Origin: Roseburia sp.
GTDB lineage: Bacteria; Bacillota; Clostridia; Lachnospirales; Lachnospiraceae
Direction of reading: 5' to 3'
DNA: 64,000 nt
Assembly (NCBI GenBank): GCA_026168605.1
Contig: JAPFDX010000020.1
Span: forward strand, 1-64,000
Shown: positions 17,987 through 24,124 of the stretch, one piece after another
Numbering within the stretch: the first letter of the stretch is position 1
How the letters are laid out: each line of letters begins with the position of its first letter
Notes under the pieces: generated by a model
Told to the model about the DNA's origin: nothing
The model's database searches: none
Seen by the model: only the letters and a program-made list of their open reading frames with translations
Made by a program: the position numbers and the translations under genes

Positions 17987-19039
17987 TTATTTGTATACCA
18001 GATATAATTCCACAACTGCCAGCGCCAGACACGGCAACGCACACACCACCAGTTTTCCTACATTTTTCCAGCTTTTCTTCTCAATCAGATATTCCAGTCC
18101 AAATGCGCCCAGAAGAATAGGGCATAAAAACAACGCCATTGACGAGCAGAGGCACGCTCCAAGTACTGTCGCAAACATCAGCCCCCACATCCGCCTGTCT
18201 GTTCCGTCTTTGCGCAGGCAGATCCAGACATACCACAGCAACGGAATAAAGACGGCCGCGATCACTCCCTTTCCCTGCCAGACTCTTGTAAGCAGAAATA
18301 CAGAACTGGAAACGGTCGAAAATGCTCCAAAAATATTTGCCAGTATGACGAGCAACATAAATTCCATACGCTGCGAAAACCGGAGGAACAGCTTTTTTGC
18401 CAGAAGATAATAGACTACATAACACCACGCGATATTTACCGCCGGCAAAGCTGACCGCATCAGAATCGCCGGATGCAGAGACAGAAGTCTGGACCATGTA
18501 GCACAATAAACCGGGTAGGGTGAAAGCACATAATTTGCCATTGCCTTTAACTCTACCGGTGTTCCAAGATACGGATGGTTGATCGAAATCGTATCAGAAA
18601 AATATGACGTCACCGCCATCCCCACATAATAGGCATCATCATCATCCAGGTGCATATTGACACAGACATATGTCATTTGAAGAACAATCCCGGCTACGAC
18701 AAGCACAAATAATATCGTTCCCCATGCTTCCATTTGCGGGCGTTTCATATGAAATCCGACCAACTCTTTGCGATGCCATTTTACCCAAATGCCAATGCAG
18801 ATGATCAGAAACAACGTTCCTGCATAAACAGCCGACACCCTCGTGAGCGACTGCTTTGCAAAAGTTCCTGCCAGTACCCATACCTCAAATATGGCATACA
18901 TCACTATCATACCAAAATTCCATTTTTCCAAAACTTCGTTTCCATCAGTCCTGGTTTTTCCTATCTGGCAGACTGCCCCTATGCAGTAGGGCAACAGTGC
19001 CATAATCGCCAAAAATAAAATGATCTTTGCAATATCCAC
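17987..19039 (-). CDS. DUF6077-like membrane protein with DDDD motif, copy A
   Basis: This is a 350-residue polytopic protein (8-9 TM helices). An extracytoplasmic loop carries DDDDAYY at about residues 132-135, followed by HP and a Pro/Tyr-rich stretch. A later loop has RVWQGKGVIAAVFIPL. The same motifs (HGDDDDARF and RIWQGKAVCASFMIPL) occur in the paralogue at 32423-33487. I read it as the DUF6077 type of protein. The start is taken as GTG at 19039 because CCTCC (read GGAGG) lies exactly 6 nt upstream and the protein then aligns end to end with the paralogue; the ATG at 19072 lacks support. An acidic cluster in an outer loop suggests metal-dependent transfer from a lipid-linked sugar. This is not proven. 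Confidence 0.65.
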   Translation of the reverse strand: MDIAKIILFLAIMALLPYCIGAVCQIGKTRTDGNEVLEKWNFGMIVMYAIFEVWVLAGTFAKQSLTRVSAVYAGTLFLIICIGIWVKWHRKELVGFHMKRPQMEAWGTILFVLVVAGIVLQMTYVCVNMHLDDDDAYYVGMAVTSYFSDTISINHPYLGTPVELKAMANYVLSPYPVYCATWSRLLSLHPAILMRSALPAVNIAWCYVVYYLLAKKLFLRFSQRMEFMLLVILANIFGAFSTVSSSVFLLTRVWQGKGVIAAVFIPLLWYVWICLRKDGTDRRMWGLMFATVLGACLCSSMALFLCPILLGAFGLEYLIEKKSWKNVGKLVVCALPCLALAVVELYLVYK

Positions 19040-19078
19040 ACATTTCCTCCCCGTCATCACAGCTCTCTGCATCGACTT

Positions 19079-20887
19079 TTATCCCAGAATTTCACACAGT
19101 GTCCTCACAAGTCTGTCATTGTCCTCATGATTGCGTACGGCAGCCCTTAAATACTGCCTGCCATTTGCCACCTTCCTTGTCAGATCCTTCACCAGAATCT
19201 GATGTTGTATCAGGAGTTCTTTCATCACACCGGCTGCTGTCCTTCCATCTGTCAGTTCCACCATCACATAGTTTGCCTGCGTTGGAAGCACTCTAAGCCC
19301 GGGAAGCTTAGCAAGCTCTGCCACAAAGCTTTCTCTCTCCTCCCTAAAGCTTTTAAGCCCTGCGGCATAATCCTTCCGGTATTTCTCCTCAATCTGCATA
19401 TAATACTCTGCCAGAGAATTGATATTCCAGATAGCGACATCCTGCTTTAGCCAGGCAATCAGCTCCGTATCCCCGCAGGCAAGCACTCCAAGGCGCAAGC
19501 CCGGTATTCCATAAGATTTTGAAATACTCTTTACCACAATCAGATTCGGATATTCGGCAAAAAAACTCTCCTGAATCAGACTGTTCTCCTGCTCCTCTGC
19601 AAAATCAGCAAAAGATTCATCCCACAGCAGTGTGATCTGCTCCTGTTTCGTCCAGTCCAGCAGTTTTTTACGTTCTGCTCTGTCCAGATAATTTCCTGTC
19701 GGATTATCAGGATTTACAAGAACCAGGTTTTTCACACGGTTTTTGGAAAAGAACCCGATCAACTCGTCTGCTGTATAGCGAAAATCTTTGTTTTCCGGGA
19801 AAAATGTCACTGCCTCATCCCCATAACGATTGGGATATTCTTCAAAAGTCGGACGAATAAACCCTATTCTGCCATCCAGTTTTGCCATCACTGATTTTAT
19901 CAGCTCAGCCGCGCCATTCCCCACAACGATATGTTCCTGCTTTACGCCAAAATTCTTTGCCGCCAGCAGAGAATTGACACGCATACCTGACGGATACTGC
20001 GTGACAAGCACCTCAAAATTTGCTTTCAGCTCATCCAGAAGCTTCTGTGGGGGAAAATATGGATTCACCAGATAGCAGAAATCCAAAAGCTTCGGGTATC
20101 TCCAGTATCCTCCGTATCTCCCCGTCATCAACTCCGCTTTCGTGTCATCCTCCTCCGCAAACAGCGAAGTTGCAATATCCAGATCCTGCACATCATCAAT
20201 CTCATACCACAGCTCACCCTGTAGACGCTTTGCCTTGATGACAGGCTCATCCAGAATTGAGATGACACTCAGCACCTGCTCATAGTACTCGTTATTGCCA
20301 AGCGCTTTCTGGTAAGCCTCCAGAAACGGAACATACCGTGATCTCGAAAACTCTTTACTAAATTTATAAATATTCACCGTCTTATAGTAGCTTTCTTTTT
20401 CCTCGAACCGGAATTTTCTTCCGGGTATGAACTCTGTAATCTGATCCTTTTCGTCCAGCTTTACTACAGTGCCATCCATCCACCGCTCATACTTGTCCAC
20501 AAGCGCCAGTGTATCACGCGTATCCTCTACAAGTCCCAGCAATACGGCGTCCTCAAAAATAATGTCAGACTCCAGCAAAAGCGTATCATCCTCCATGAGG
20601 TACTCCTTCGCCATTGCAAGCGAATAGATATTGTTCGTCCTATCATAAATCGTGTTGTTCACATACACAACCGGCGTCTGAATTCCAAGCGTTCCGATAT
20701 AGTTCATCAGCTTTTCCCCTTCATAGCCTACCACGATCACAATTCTGCTCAACTGTAATTTTTCGAGCTGGCGCAGCGCGCGCTCAATCAGGGAGACTCC
20801 ATCCACCCTGACCATACATTTTGTATTGTTCTCCGTTAAGTCCTTCAGCCTTTTTCCCATTCCGGCTGCCAATATCACTGCCTGCAT
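19079..20887 (-). CDS. LicC-like cytidylyltransferase fused to a HisC/CobD-like PLP enzyme
   Basis: The 602-residue protein has two enzymes. Residues 1-245 form a sugar/alcohol-phosphate nucleotidyltransferase: MQAVILAAGMGKRL with K24 in NNTKCMV, the metal residue in LLESD (D108) and WYEIDDVQD near 228-236, like LicC CTP:phosphocholine cytidylyltransferase. Residues 265-602 are a fold-type I PLP enzyme. They show NPDNPTGN (392-399), DESFADF (D423), SISKSYG with PLP lysine K457, and GLRLG. The nearest relatives by motif are HisC aminotransferase and CobD threonine-phosphate decarboxylase. The start at 20887 has AGGAGG at good spacing. It follows LicD by 13 nt. One reading is O-phosphoserine (or phosphothreonine) decarboxylation to a phospho-aminoalcohol and activation as the CDP derivative for LicD. 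A transaminase feeding the same activation step is the alternative. Confidence 0.85.
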   Translation of the reverse strand: MQAVILAAGMGKRLKDLTENNTKCMVRVDGVSLIERALRQLEKLQLSRIVIVVGYEGEKLMNYIGTLGIQTPVVYVNNTIYDRTNNIYSLAMAKEYLMEDDTLLLESDIIFEDAVLLGLVEDTRDTLALVDKYERWMDGTVVKLDEKDQITEFIPGRKFRFEEKESYYKTVNIYKFSKEFSRSRYVPFLEAYQKALGNNEYYEQVLSVISILDEPVIKAKRLQGELWYEIDDVQDLDIATSLFAEEDDTKAELMTGRYGGYWRYPKLLDFCYLVNPYFPPQKLLDELKANFEVLVTQYPSGMRVNSLLAAKNFGVKQEHIVVGNGAAELIKSVMAKLDGRIGFIRPTFEEYPNRYGDEAVTFFPENKDFRYTADELIGFFSKNRVKNLVLVNPDNPTGNYLDRAERKKLLDWTKQEQITLLWDESFADFAEEQENSLIQESFFAEYPNLIVVKSISKSYGIPGLRLGVLACGDTELIAWLKQDVAIWNINSLAEYYMQIEEKYRKDYAAGLKSFREERESFVAELAKLPGLRVLPTQANYVMVELTDGRTAAGVMKELLIQHQILVKDLTRKVANGRQYLRAAVRNHEDNDRLVRTLCEILG

Positions 20888-20900
20888 TCCTTCCTCCTTC

Positions 20901-21719
20901 TCATACCTTACCTTGTTTACGGTACGCCTTATAATTATGTTGTGGACATCTTGCTTCCTCTGGCGGCAACTCCATATAATTACCATAAGAAGTTCGAAGC
21001 AGTCTGTCGTATTCTTTTGGTACCGTCACCTGCATATCACAAAATGGCAGTCTGGTGACCTGCTCAAAATATTCCTTTTCAAACATTTCCGGCTCCCAGA
21101 CAATGCATCCCACGTAACGACTCTCCTCCCATGAAAACCGATTTTTATACTGTTCCAGCCTATTTAAAAAATAGTCCTTCCCTTTCCATCTGGCAAACAG
21201 ATAGAGCAGATATTTATCTATCACACGGTATTTTTTCTTTGGCATTTCAAACTTCTGTCTGGTAGCGTAGTAGCTTCCGGCAATCAACTGCTGTCTGGTA
21301 CGCATCATCTTTTTCCAGATCTCCTTACTGTTTCCCATGCCATCCAGCGGATAAATATCCACAAACAGCCCCATCCCACACGGGATCTCATTCTTCACCT
21401 CGACCGGATATTCCACATTACAAAAGCGGGCAATCATATGCGGATAGTTTGCATTATTGCGGTTTGTAAAAATACGAAACGGATACAGTTCCTCTTCATG
21501 GCGGATACAGTACTCCAAAAACTTCTCATAGTCTTCCCGGCGCATCATAATATCCAGATCATCATCCCACGGGATAAACCCCTGATGCCGGACTGTTCCG
21601 ATCAGTGAACCATACGCCATATAGTAAGTCACCCCCAGTCCTTTTGCCAGTGCATCTATTTTTTTCAAAATATCCAGCGTCACCGCATGAATTTCATCCA
21701 TCTGCAATTCTCTCCGCAT
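20901..21719 (-). CDS. licD: LicD-family phosphotransferase
   Basis: LicD proteins transfer phosphocholine or related phospho-groups from a CDP donor to a glycan. Residues 34-60 have the family core, with MAYGSLIGTVRHQGFIPWDD continuing into the acidic DDDLD (52-56). The following MMRREDYEKF is typical. Length (272 residues) is normal. The start at 21719 (MRRELQMDEI) follows GAGAGGGAAA; an upstream ATG at 21758 would overlap the flippase gene. It is immediately followed by the cytidylyltransferase-PLP fusion, which strongly suggests the fusion makes its donor. No choline uptake or choline kinase gene (licA/licB) is in the window, so the donor may not be choline (inference). Confidence 0.92.
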   Translation of the reverse strand: MRRELQMDEIHAVTLDILKKIDALAKGLGVTYYMAYGSLIGTVRHQGFIPWDDDLDIMMRREDYEKFLEYCIRHEEELYPFRIFTNRNNANYPHMIARFCNVEYPVEVKNEIPCGMGLFVDIYPLDGMGNSKEIWKKMMRTRQQLIAGSYYATRQKFEMPKKKYRVIDKYLLYLFARWKGKDYFLNRLEQYKNRFSWEESRYVGCIVWEPEMFEKEYFEQVTRLPFCDMQVTVPKEYDRLLRTSYGNYMELPPEEARCPQHNYKAYRKQGKV

Positions 21720-21744: not shown

Positions 21745-23166
21745 CTATTTTCCAGCAAACTTTTCTTTTAATCTGTGTCCGATTTCAAACTCATGCTCCG
21801 CCCACCACAAGAAAAATATGCCAAGCCCTGCAAGCAGCATCCAGCGCACCAGCCAGTATTCGACCAGAAACAGCGAAACTGCACCAGCCGCCATTGTTCC
21901 CACACTGTAACATACCAGCTTTCCTGTATCGAATATACATCCTTTTTGCACACGCCATGCAATGATATAATGAAACACAAAATACAGCAGATAGGTTACA
22001 AGCGTGGTATATGCTGCCGCCAGATATCCAAACTTTCGAATAAACAGAAAATTCAAAATGATATTAATCCCTGCCGCCATTCCGGTTCCAAGTGCAATAT
22101 ACTTCGTCTTTTCATAATAATACTCCACACAGGAGGGAAATGTATATAGAAACATAAAATATCCTCCCACAACAATTGGAATCACGGAATACATGGCATC
22201 CCAGTATTCCTTTGCGCCAAGCAATTTCACCAGTTCGGGCGTTCCGAGCATGACCATCCCCGAAAACACCATCATGCCAAACGCATACTTACTTCCAGCT
22301 TTCCGGATGTCATCATATCTTTCCGCCGCCATTTTCTCATAAAACCAAGGTCCCCACACATTGTCCAGGGAATTTGCCGTCACGTTAATAATGGAAAAAA
22401 TCGTATATCCAAAACTGTAAATTCCTGCCTGCGCGCTTCCGATCATGTTCTGGATCATGATTCGGTCAAACTGTGACAGGATTACCTGCGAGATGCCATG
22501 CGGAATCAGGGGCAGGCTGTAACTCACAGCATACCTTACATACTCCTTATCCGGTACCGGTTTCGCCTGTCTCCAAAAATACCAGATAATGACAACCGCG
22601 ATCAAAATCACGGGAAGTGCATTTCCCAAAATCCTTCCGATCGCCCGGTCACTGCGAAAAACCGTCAGAATGAAAAACACCGACAATCCCAGATTCGCCA
22701 GCGCATTAAAGGCAGAAATTTTGAGAAATGCCGTATACTGGTAATCCAGTCCGACATATACATTAAAAAATTGTATCAGTGCAGTTCCAAAGCTGTCAAG
22801 CAGAAGCAGATTTACGATCACACGCGAAAATCCAAGCCATGTCCCATAAAGTGGATAAAGCAGATTTCCAAGCAACAACCAGATAAGAAGGCTTACCAGT
22901 GCAAGCAGTATACAGTTGGAATTGTAGCGGGCAAAATTCTCCCCATATTTATAACGTGCATTTTTCAGACTTGTGTGCAGCGCCAGACCAATCAATAAAA
23001 ACAAAATGGTCTGGTATGCCAGGTATGTATTAAAAATTCCGTATTCCGAAGTCGAAAGAAGACGTGAAAAAACAGGGACTGTCAAAAAACTCAGTCCCTT
23101 CAGCATATAATTCCCAACTGTATAACCGATACCGGCTTTTATTACCCTGCTGTTTTTTTTCTCCAT
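21745..23166 (-). CDS. wzx: Wzx-like lipid-linked oligosaccharide flippase
   Basis: This is a polysaccharide transporter of the MOP superfamily with about 14 TM helices over 473 residues. The N-terminus has the typical GYTVGNYMLKGLSFLTVPVF followed by SRLLSTSEYGIFNTY, a hallmark of the PST/Wzx group. It moves undecaprenyl-linked repeat units across the membrane for a Wzy-type polymerase. The Wzy-like protein encoded at 30424-31611 and the Wzz-like protein at 33477-34766 complete such a system. The start at 23166 (MEKKNSRVIK) is supported by GAGGAGATT. Presence of Wzx together with two ABC exporters shows that more than one export route is encoded here. Confidence 0.92.
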   Translation of the reverse strand: MEKKNSRVIKAGIGYTVGNYMLKGLSFLTVPVFSRLLSTSEYGIFNTYLAYQTILFLLIGLALHTSLKNARYKYGENFARYNSNCILLALVSLLIWLLLGNLLYPLYGTWLGFSRVIVNLLLLDSFGTALIQFFNVYVGLDYQYTAFLKISAFNALANLGLSVFFILTVFRSDRAIGRILGNALPVILIAVVIIWYFWRQAKPVPDKEYVRYAVSYSLPLIPHGISQVILSQFDRIMIQNMIGSAQAGIYSFGYTIFSIINVTANSLDNVWGPWFYEKMAAERYDDIRKAGSKYAFGMMVFSGMVMLGTPELVKLLGAKEYWDAMYSVIPIVVGGYFMFLYTFPSCVEYYYEKTKYIALGTGMAAGINIILNFLFIRKFGYLAAAYTTLVTYLLYFVFHYIIAWRVQKGCIFDTGKLVCYSVGTMAAGAVSLFLVEYWLVRWMLLAGLGIFFLWWAEHEFEIGHRLKEKFAGK

Positions 23167-23176
23167 AATCTCCTCT

Positions 23177-24124
23177 TTATCCGCGCACCTCATACTCTCT
23201 CATCAGTTTCAAAAACTTCCGGTACGACTTTGCCACATTGGAAAAATAAAAAATCTTCGCATCGCAAAAGTCCGTATAAATCTGTCTCGTCGTGACTGCC
23301 TCCTTGTGCATACAGACCACCTCCGGCGAATAGAGCATGACAAGTCCCCTCTTTTTTGCCAGATAGTAGAGGATCTCCTCCTCCGCATACAGAAACGTCT
23401 CCGGCCAGAAGCCGTCAAATTCCGCAAAAAAGTCTTTCGAGAACACCATGCAACAGCCGTGCAGGAGCACGTCCGTAAGTTCCTCTCCGATGCGCACATC
23501 CGCGGAGACGGATCTTCCCTCCACCTCACGCGTCGTCAGGTTCTTGCTGCCGTCAGAGACGTCCACGCCCGCCTCGTTTGTGGCGATCCCATAATATCCT
23601 GCCACCGCCTTTTTCAGTCGCAGGAGCCGGATCGCCCGGAACATCCACGCCTTGCAGGAGGAGATCAGCGCCTGCTTGCGCATATAGGGGATCGTGTAGA
23701 CGCGCGCCCTTGCCACCGGATTAAAATGCTGGGTGCGGCTCGCATCGATGATGTCCGCGCCAAGGACTGCGAACGGCTTTCTCTCATAGATCCCATACAG
23801 CTTCTCGCAGTAATCCGTCTGTTCAAAAATGATGTCGCTGTTTGCCGCCACGACAAAATCCGGATGAAAATGCTCTCTCGCATAGCGGATCCCCAGGTTA
23901 TTCCCCTGCGCAAATCCCAGATTCTGCTCCGCCGCAACAATATGCACCCGTGCCTCGCCCGCAAAATGTTCCCTTAGCTGCTCTGCGCTTCCATTTTCTG
24001 AGCCGTTGTCCACGATCACGATCTGTATGTCGGGATACGTCTGCGTCGTGAGAATGGACGCTGCACACGCGATCGTTTCCCCGTAGGTCTTATAATTTAA
24101 AATCACAAAACTGATAGTTCCCAT
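23177..24124 (-). CDS. Family 2 glycosyltransferase (rhamnosyltransferase-like)
   Basis: This is a GT2 of the WbbL/RfbF-like group. ISFVILNYKTYGETIACAAS, IQIVIVDNGSENGSAEQL, LGFAQGNNLGIRYA and VVAANSDIIFE (the NSD form of the metal motif) are all visible. VLLHGCCMVFSKDFF and ETFLYAEEEILYYLAKKRG follow, as in rhamnosyltransferases. That the window makes dTDP-rhamnose supports, but does not prove, rhamnose as donor. The start at 24124 (MGTISFVIL) is placed just after the stop of the neighbouring GT2; AGAGG precedes it. The much longer upstream extension is out of place with the family and overlaps the neighbour in another frame. Confidence 0.88.
   Translation of the reverse strand: MGTISFVILNYKTYGETIACAASILTTQTYPDIQIVIVDNGSENGSAEQLREHFAGEARVHIVAAEQNLGFAQGNNLGIRYAREHFHPDFVVAANSDIIFEQTDYCEKLYGIYERKPFAVLGADIIDASRTQHFNPVARARVYTIPYMRKQALISSCKAWMFRAIRLLRLKKAVAGYYGIATNEAGVDVSDGSKNLTTREVEGRSVSADVRIGEELTDVLLHGCCMVFSKDFFAEFDGFWPETFLYAEEEILYYLAKKRGLVMLYSPEVVCMHKEAVTTRQIYTDFCDAKIFYFSNVAKSYRKFLKLMREYEVRG

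Follow-up and report, generated by a model that had tools for sequence, protein, structure and literature searches.

A cytidylyltransferase fused to a PLP enzyme beside LicD: a predicted one-protein route from O-phosphoserine to CDP-ethanolamine

Introduction

What donor does a LicD-family phosphotransferase use when the gene beside it encodes a cytidylyltransferase fused to a pyridoxal phosphate (PLP) enzyme? The question is raised by a stretch of Roseburia sp. DNA of 64,000 nucleotides (nt), here called the window, which lies on contig 32 of a draft genome of 2.73 Mb and 50 contigs. In this window a gene for a 602-aa fusion protein follows a LicD gene, and an original prediction, made from the letters of the DNA, had proposed that this single protein makes a cytidine diphosphate (CDP) derivative of an amino alcohol. 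We consider it probable that the fusion is a FrbH-type enzyme with two activities, which would convert O-phosphoserine into CDP-ethanolamine for LicD. This reading draws on sequence, a structural model and gene context, and the activity is a predicted one. What we observed directly are the genes, with the active-site residues of both halves intact, the placement of the PLP half with a serine-phosphate decarboxylase, and the gene context in multiple genomes. Published work is cited by PMC number.

Results

Architecture and active sites of the fusion

Position numbers refer to the window, and all genes listed lie on the minus strand.

19079..20887, minus strand: bifunctional fusion of 602 aa, predicted cytidylyltransferase plus PLP decarboxylase (translation, Pfam, NCBIfam, PDB matches, alignment, tree, AlphaFold model)
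20168..20887, minus strand: N-terminal half of the fusion, residues 1-240, NTP transferase of the LicC/PntC type (Pfam, PDB matches, residue conservation, PntC consensus)
19082..20122, minus strand: C-terminal half of the fusion, residues 256-602, fold-type I PLP domain of the serine-phosphate decarboxylase branch (tree, motifs, PDB matches, VIA-align)
20888..20900, minus strand: gap of 13 nt from the LicD stop to the fusion start, with Shine-Dalgarno-like GAAGGAGGAAGGA followed by ATG (sequence)
20901..21719, minus strand: LicD-family phosphotransferase of 272 aa with WDDDLD, predicted user of a CDP-aminoalcohol (Pfam LicD, PF04991, 137.2 bits)

Both genes on which the original prediction rested are real. 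The fusion occupies an intact 602-aa frame with no internal stop, 13 nt past LicD, and the PLP half does carry K457 and D423. The LicD protein contains the DDDLD motif that had been reported, and its Pfam score, compared with a gathering score of 22.6 for PF04991, makes it a member of that family; NCBIfam returned a single match for it, at 93.3 bits, far under the cut-off of 225.

Pfam finds NTP_transf_3 at residues 3-123 of the fusion (44.8 bits) and Aminotran_1_2 at residues 314-596 (119.8 bits). A cytidylyltransferase of the PF12804 type and a PLP domain of fold type I are paired in one chain, and the pairing is conserved from end to end in the 18 aligned members, the window's own included. 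The earlier assignment of the N-terminal half as a cytidylyltransferase of the LicC/PntC type holds: in addition to the Pfam domain, its best-scoring solved matches in a PDB search are PntC-AEPT (68 bits) and LicC (44 bits). Its key residues are G9, G11, R13, K23, D108, W136, K169, D232 and D235. Set against the PntC consensus GXG(T/S)RX4-8PK (PMC6697681), the fusion reads GMGKR...TK, which keeps the Gly, Arg and Lys and replaces T/S by K and P by T. The cytidine-binding residues, whose absence would have told against a CDP product, were checked in part, and the Arg and Lys of the cytidine triphosphate (CTP) site are present. Among 104 distinct full-length sequences this site is nearly invariant (R13 in 104/104, K23 in 103/104, D108 in 104/104).

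The key residues of the C-terminal half are D423, K457 (window 19517-19519), R465, W487-N490, K567 and R581. In the same 104 sequences D423 is kept in 103 and K457 in 101, while R465, W487, N488, N490 and R581 are found in every one. An AlphaFold model of the whole chain, built from an 18-row alignment (A1), has a mean predicted local distance difference test score of 88.8 and a predicted template-modelling (TM) score of 0.85. When this model was searched with Foldseek, PntC-AEPT chains took ranks 1-2 by E-value, with a TM score of 0.34 over both domains, and 6oux (SMUL_1544) took rank 3.

Placement of the PLP half

The PLP half might in principle decarboxylate its substrate or transaminate it, and it had been described as similar to HisC and CobD. 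As to fold and overall likeness that description stands, since this is a PLP-fold domain that resembles CobD by sequence; as to identity it does not, for the domain is neither HisC nor CobD and falls on the branch of a serine-phosphate decarboxylase. Its closest solved protein by sequence is 6oux, which also ranks first for this half in VIA-align. The match of 6oux to a Sulfurospirillum protein prints no difference; this protein carries the annotation serine-O-phosphate decarboxylase and is encoded between cbiB and cobU, the interval that SMUL_1544 occupies in a table of PMC7755780.

We built a maximum-likelihood tree of 56 rows, in which, as in alignment A1, 18 of more than 100 fusions were taken in; a 28-row alignment leaves out L022 (575 aa to a stop) and L028 (505 aa, at a contig end). 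The 18 fusions, five plasmid fusions, two split homologues and the serine-phosphate decarboxylase share one side of a branch with support 100/99. The motifs DESF, YPS and WNIN of the fusions likewise go with the decarboxylase branch. The phylogeny proposed earlier, against CobD, HisC and SMUL_1544, was thus carried out, and the fusions did not cluster with HisC.

Under a rival reading, which we regard as very unlikely, the PLP half acts as a transaminase that makes, say, serinol phosphate, and the product is CDP-serinol or similar. The fold is common to HisC, and a capsule locus offers a precedent in the serinol-phosphate enzyme Cj1437 (PMC12409886), to which we liken the fusion by description. 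Against this, the DEAY of HisC-type proteins is DESF in 18/18 fusions, and an approximately unbiased (AU) test rejects a grouping of fusions with HisC that had been named beforehand in the original prediction (p-AU 0.018). The HisC model TIGR01141, second among NCBIfam models, scores 151.5 bits, under its cut-off of 276.55, and we rejected HisC as an identity for this half on these three grounds. We also rejected a class V transaminase, as Pfam detects PF00155 and not PF00266. Tree, motifs and fold all favour a decarboxylase over a transaminase, as had been proposed.

Apart from the fusion, the genome encodes a HisC above cut-off and a CobD-like protein that scores 289 bits. The latter is not called CobD here, because it belongs to a distinct subgroup of the tree, with DETY.

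A predicted reaction and its precedents

L-2-amino-4-phosphonobutyrate is the isostere of O-phosphoserine in which CH2 stands for O. FrbH, which acts on that phosphonate in FR-900098 biosynthesis in Streptomyces, holds a cytidylyltransferase and a PLP decarboxylase in one chain (PMC8007912). The combination thus has a precedent. FrbH and the window fusion, the latter by prediction, are alike in carrying both activities in one chain and in a product, an aminoalkyl compound, that is activated with cytidine monophosphate (CMP). They differ in that FrbH takes a phosphonate in an antibiotic pathway, whereas the window's cluster is one for a surface polysaccharide, and phosphoenolpyruvate (PEP) mutase is found in few genomes of relatives. 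In a setting that forms no C-P bond, an enzyme like FrbH is most simply read as converting phosphoserine to CDP-ethanolamine.

Under this reading the N-terminal half would transfer CMP from CTP onto the phosphate of O-phospho-L-serine, giving CDP-L-serine. The C-terminal half would hold this compound through a PLP aldimine on K457 and release the alpha-carboxylate as CO2, leaving CDP-ethanolamine. LicD would then place ethanolamine phosphate on a sugar of the repeat unit, and Wzx would export the unit after the LicD step. We infer that the substrate is phosphoserine, and neither phosphothreonine nor a phosphonate, that cytidylylation would come before decarboxylation, by analogy with FrbH, and that LicD transfers the product.

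Other known systems share parts of this scheme. The SMUL_1544-type protein, on the same side of the 100/99 branch, is stand-alone and has Arg at position 567, where the fusion has Lys. In a Campylobacter capsule locus, the serine-phosphate decarboxylase Cj1436 makes ethanolamine phosphate (PMC12409886); we liken it to the fusion by description, and its ethanolamine ends as an amide, as against the CDP-activated donor predicted here. PntC-AEPT of Treponema denticola (6pd1/6pd2), the top solved match of the N-terminal half, also joins a cytidylyltransferase to a PLP enzyme, but its PLP half is named in the PDB as a class V, or 2-aminoethylphosphonate, transaminase, in contrast to the Aminotran_1_2 domain of the fusion. 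The LicC/LicD phosphocholine system likewise has a cytidylyltransferase beside LicD; it differs from the window, where no kinase or uptake gene was found and the amine is predicted to come from decarboxylation. In the open-licence PMC literature, which is part of the whole, we found no paper describing a fusion of this kind that leads from phosphoserine to CDP-ethanolamine.

An ester counterpart of the FrbH route may exist on plasmid pBM700 of Priestia megaterium QM B1551 (L218, 138030-153796), where a fusion gene is accompanied by genes for an AAC(3)-family acetyltransferase, two ATP-grasp proteins and a DXR homologue, together with a weakly matching Lys/Orn N-oxygenase-like protein that is homologous to one beside the Rahnella fusion. 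A search of this plasmid, and not of the chromosome, found no PEP mutase. Fosmidomycin has a phosphate congener, fosfoxacin; fosfocytocin is a nucleotide antibiotic (PMC9782300). The Priestia cluster looks like one of the fosfoxacin/fosfocytocin type, which is a prediction, and as such it fits phosphoserine as the substrate of the family.

Spread of the family

Within the host family, 33 of 299 genomes, our own included, hold 34 proteins that match both halves, two of them partial (1-504 and 1-511). Among 398 genomes sampled across the phylum, one, from another family, has such a match (E <= 1e-50). A scan of genome contigs confirmed at least 587 relatives (E <= 1e-3) out of at least 595 candidates. 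From these 80 were kept, and we refer to them as 77 named loci after removal of L133, L157 and L169, in which the open reading frame (ORF) of the fusion was not called. Our 32 relatives' loci are the 33 that were fetched minus L068, for the same reason. Among the matches listed, the 80 kept titles are mostly Lachnospiraceae, Oscillospiraceae, Clostridia or Clostridiales, largely metagenome-assembled genomes, with one Treponemataceae, two Selenomonas-type and three actinobacterial entries.

Plasmids yielded 124 matches in 72,556 records. Coverage of the query reaches 80% or more in 12 of the matches, and these include Fusobacterium (49%) and Gloeothece, Rahnella, Erwinia, Pseudonocardia and Priestia (31-35%). 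Most plasmid relatives are annotated simply as 'aminotransferase class I/II-fold'. Because both-half matches recur in 33/299 family genomes and the scan confirmed at least 587 relatives, the pairing of the two domains is not a matter of chance, and the fusions form a large, uncharacterised family.

Gene neighbours in the window and in relatives

On the minus strand the gene order is Wzx flippase, LicD, fusion, DUF6077 protein, and the surrounding region of the window holds several glycosyltransferase genes. The two outer genes are as follows.

21745..23193, minus strand: polysaccharide flippase of the Wzx type, upstream of LicD (Pfam Polysacc_synt, 78.7 bits)
17987..19072, minus strand: DUF6077 protein, 6 nt downstream of the fusion, possibly a polymerase or transferase, a presumed role (Pfam DUF6077, 275.3 bits)

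From the position of these genes, decoration of a Wzx/Wzy polymer is plausible.

The window had been said to lack genes for choline uptake and choline kinase. This is correct for the window itself, where phmmer, queried with the genome's own choline-kinase-like and permease-like proteins, found no match. Genome-wide it fails, and the absence is misleading because a licABCD-like operon lies elsewhere in the same genome, on contig 37 (G000:C37). The genome has three LicD systems in all, and the one in the window alone has no kinase, permease or PEP mutase alongside.

Is LicD the regular user of the product? LicD adjoins the fusion in the window and in 5/32 relatives' loci, and lies within the fetched flank in 12/32 of these and in 29 of the 77 named loci. 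We rejected it as a fixed partner on the counts from the relatives, and the idea of LicD as the user survives in the weaker form of one partner among several. If proteins of the Glyphos_transf family, which we take to be TagF-like, are counted as well, the totals rise to 16 of the 32 and 49 of the 77; these are lower bounds, for the Glyphos_transf profile missed proteins in L070 and L071 that Pfam found. After the fusion, a Rahnella plasmid has a CDP-alcohol phosphatidyltransferase gene, and Gloeothece has a methyltransferase gene and then LicD. Such partners (CDP-alcohol phosphatidyltransferase, methyltransferase, LicD) fit a CDP-activated alcohol with a free amine.

Genes of the opine dehydrogenase or OCD/mu-crystallin type form a second class of neighbour, found in the flank of 8 of the 32 relatives' loci and 31 of the 77 named loci. 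In 30/77 the reductase gene is the fusion's immediate neighbour and shares its strand (opine dehydrogenase 23, OCD 7; for example L094, L095 and L124), and six of these 30 overlap the fusion by exactly 4 nt. N-(1-carboxyethyl)ethanolamine phosphate occurs in O-antigens of Proteus and Providencia. Because a gene of the opine-dehydrogenase/OCD type adjoins the fusion so often, we predict that such loci probably alkylate the product further at nitrogen, making N-carboxyalkylated ethanolamine phosphate. No opine dehydrogenase was found in our own genome, in a search whose control also gave no match anywhere, so that little is shown by it.

Some further neighbours were seen. Near the fusion, at L070:10757-12679 and at L071:6092-7996, lies a protein of 634-640 aa with a 60KD_IMP (YidC-type) domain and a Glyphos_transf domain. 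A DUF1015 gene adjoins the fusion in Fusobacterium vincentii (L224:10820-11869) and in L073 (L073:9838-11064). The top three PDB rows for the Fusobacterium protein read 'Free serine kinase', at a marginal E of 0.012; the L073 protein gave no such row, and a two-row DUF1015 profile ranked a prenyltransferase first. A dedicated supply of phosphoserine is a possible role for this neighbour. In L069, at a distance of about 5 kb, the fusion has a SerC-SerA-like set of genes for Aminotran_5, 2-Hacid_dh and DUF1015 proteins; no other neighbour set holds the like, and we do not take it as evidence for the reading.

Discussion

Observations against the reading, and rival substrates

Several observations weigh against phosphoserine decarboxylation for LicD, and we set them out with the rivals on which they bear. 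The first group concerns the placement of the PLP half. We think it rather unlikely that this half decarboxylates L-threonine phosphate as CobD does, with CDP-1-amino-2-propanol as the product. CobD is second-best by sequence and in VIA-align, and its model TIGR01140 is the top NCBIfam model for the PLP half at 178.5 bits, but that score lies under the cut-off of 290.55. The AU test rejects a grouping of the fusions with 11/16 CobD-type rows (p-AU 0.0026), which was, however, picked after the tree had been seen, as was a grouping of the decarboxylase with all 16 CobD-type rows, also rejected (p 0.008). On cut-off and test we rejected CobD both as an identity and as a sister group. A threonine-phosphate route would also need a threonine kinase, which was not searched for, whereas SerC, which makes phosphoserine, is present in the genome. 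The serine-phosphate decarboxylase is a single row on a long branch, and its exact place in the tree is weaker for that reason. Furthermore, all 31 rows of HisC, CobD-type and decarboxylase proteins have Arg at position 567, as do the two split homologues, yet Lys stands there in 18/18 aligned fusions, 4/5 plasmid fusions and 103/104 full-length sequences, so the anion site differs. Arg residues at this site have roles known from CobD and HisC structures. By analogy, Lys567 may mark an altered anion site that would suit a CDP-linked substrate over a free phosphate.

The second concerns the PLP lysine, K457, which is replaced in the fusion genes of L081, L130 and L150 (3/104); in L081, aligned as L029, several PLP motifs also deviate. 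These fusions are possibly cytidylyltransferase-only or decaying copies. Were the PLP half catalytically unimportant throughout, the protein would be a phosphocholine or phosphoethanolamine cytidylyltransferase for LicD, a reading to which the lic-type operon elsewhere in the genome might also point. We hold it to be highly improbable, given that the other 101 sequences keep K457 and all 104 keep five further residues of the site, and that the lic-type operon itself encodes a LicC-like protein and a LicD.

The third concerns FrbH and phosphonates. In FrbH the mutation K38A abolished cytidylyltransferase activity (PMC6697681). The PLP-domain lysines 458, 568 and 573 of FrbH (PMC8007912) share the spacing (110, 5) of K457, K567 and K572 in the fusion and are offset from them by 1, but K38, its CTP lysine, is offset from K23 by 15. 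With unequal offsets, and with residue numbers as the basis of comparison, this likeness is no more than suggestive; the numbering in the two papers may refer to different orthologues.

A phosphonate substrate, either phosphonoalanine or 2-amino-4-phosphonobutyrate, is in our judgement unlikely; the product would then be a CMP-aminoalkylphosphonate, as it is for FrbH. Besides the FrbH precedent, our own genome speaks for such a substrate: contig 37 encodes a PEP mutase with the motif EDKxxxxxNS, in a longer protein possibly fused to a second domain, in a cluster with phosphonopyruvate-decarboxylase-like, PntC-like and iron-alcohol-dehydrogenase-like proteins and a LicD (names read from sequence, except the PEP mutase and LicD families). 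The licABCD-like operon lies directly upstream of this cluster (L032, 390-15966), in which no class V transaminase-like gene was seen by eye and which possibly serves decoration with 2-hydroxyethylphosphonate. The cluster stands on another contig than the fusion, however, with its own LicD and PntC-like protein, and no PEP mutase match was obtained in the window. Split relatives speak for phosphonates as well: on rhizobial plasmids L216 and L217, separate genes for a cytidylyltransferase and a CobD-like PLP protein lie near PEP mutase. L216 also has a CDP-alcohol phosphatidyltransferase and L217 a class I/II aminotransferase; a phosphonate-lipid route via phosphonoalanine is possible there.

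Across the relatives the picture is otherwise. PF13714 scores above cut-off in only 5/32 genomes, and a check of these above-cut-off matches found the exact PEP mutase motif in 3/32; one match without it, in G065 at 185 bits, could be a variant. Of the 32 drafts, 28 reach a completeness of 90% or more with contamination of 5% or less. PEP mutase occurs in 2/77 named loci. We therefore disfavour phosphonate as the general substrate, which, with the exact motif in 3/32 genomes, it can hardly be.

The last point concerns LicD. As a control, we took 20 regions (318 ORFs) that lie at least 17 kb from the fusion on its own contig, in 20 of the 32 genomes. No LicD, Glyphos_transf, opine dehydrogenase or OCD protein was found in them, but these regions were not selected as polysaccharide loci, and locus type may explain part of the enrichment of LicD.

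What the family would mean

We return to O-phosphoserine as the favoured substrate. It is quite possible, if somewhat short of probable, that the family represents a de novo route, widespread and undescribed, by which a single protein takes O-phosphoserine through CDP-serine to CDP-ethanolamine, bypassing phosphatidylserine decarboxylase and ethanolamine kinase. Such a route would feed LicD, TagF-like and CDP-alcohol transferases and, with coupled reductases, yield N-(1-carboxyalkyl)ethanolamine phosphate; FrbH and DXR inhibitors of the fosfocytocin type would derive from the same ester chemistry.

If this is true, many gut and rumen Clostridia could decorate their surface glycans with ethanolamine-type phosphates without taking up choline or ethanolamine, and relatives from Fusobacterium, a cyanobacterium, enterobacteria and actinobacteria would use the same route. 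Hundreds of proteins would gain a testable function, and phosphoserine could be turned into CDP-ethanolamine by a single biocatalyst. The isostere argument would, moreover, tie the chemistry of the cell surface to that of DXR-inhibiting antibiotics.

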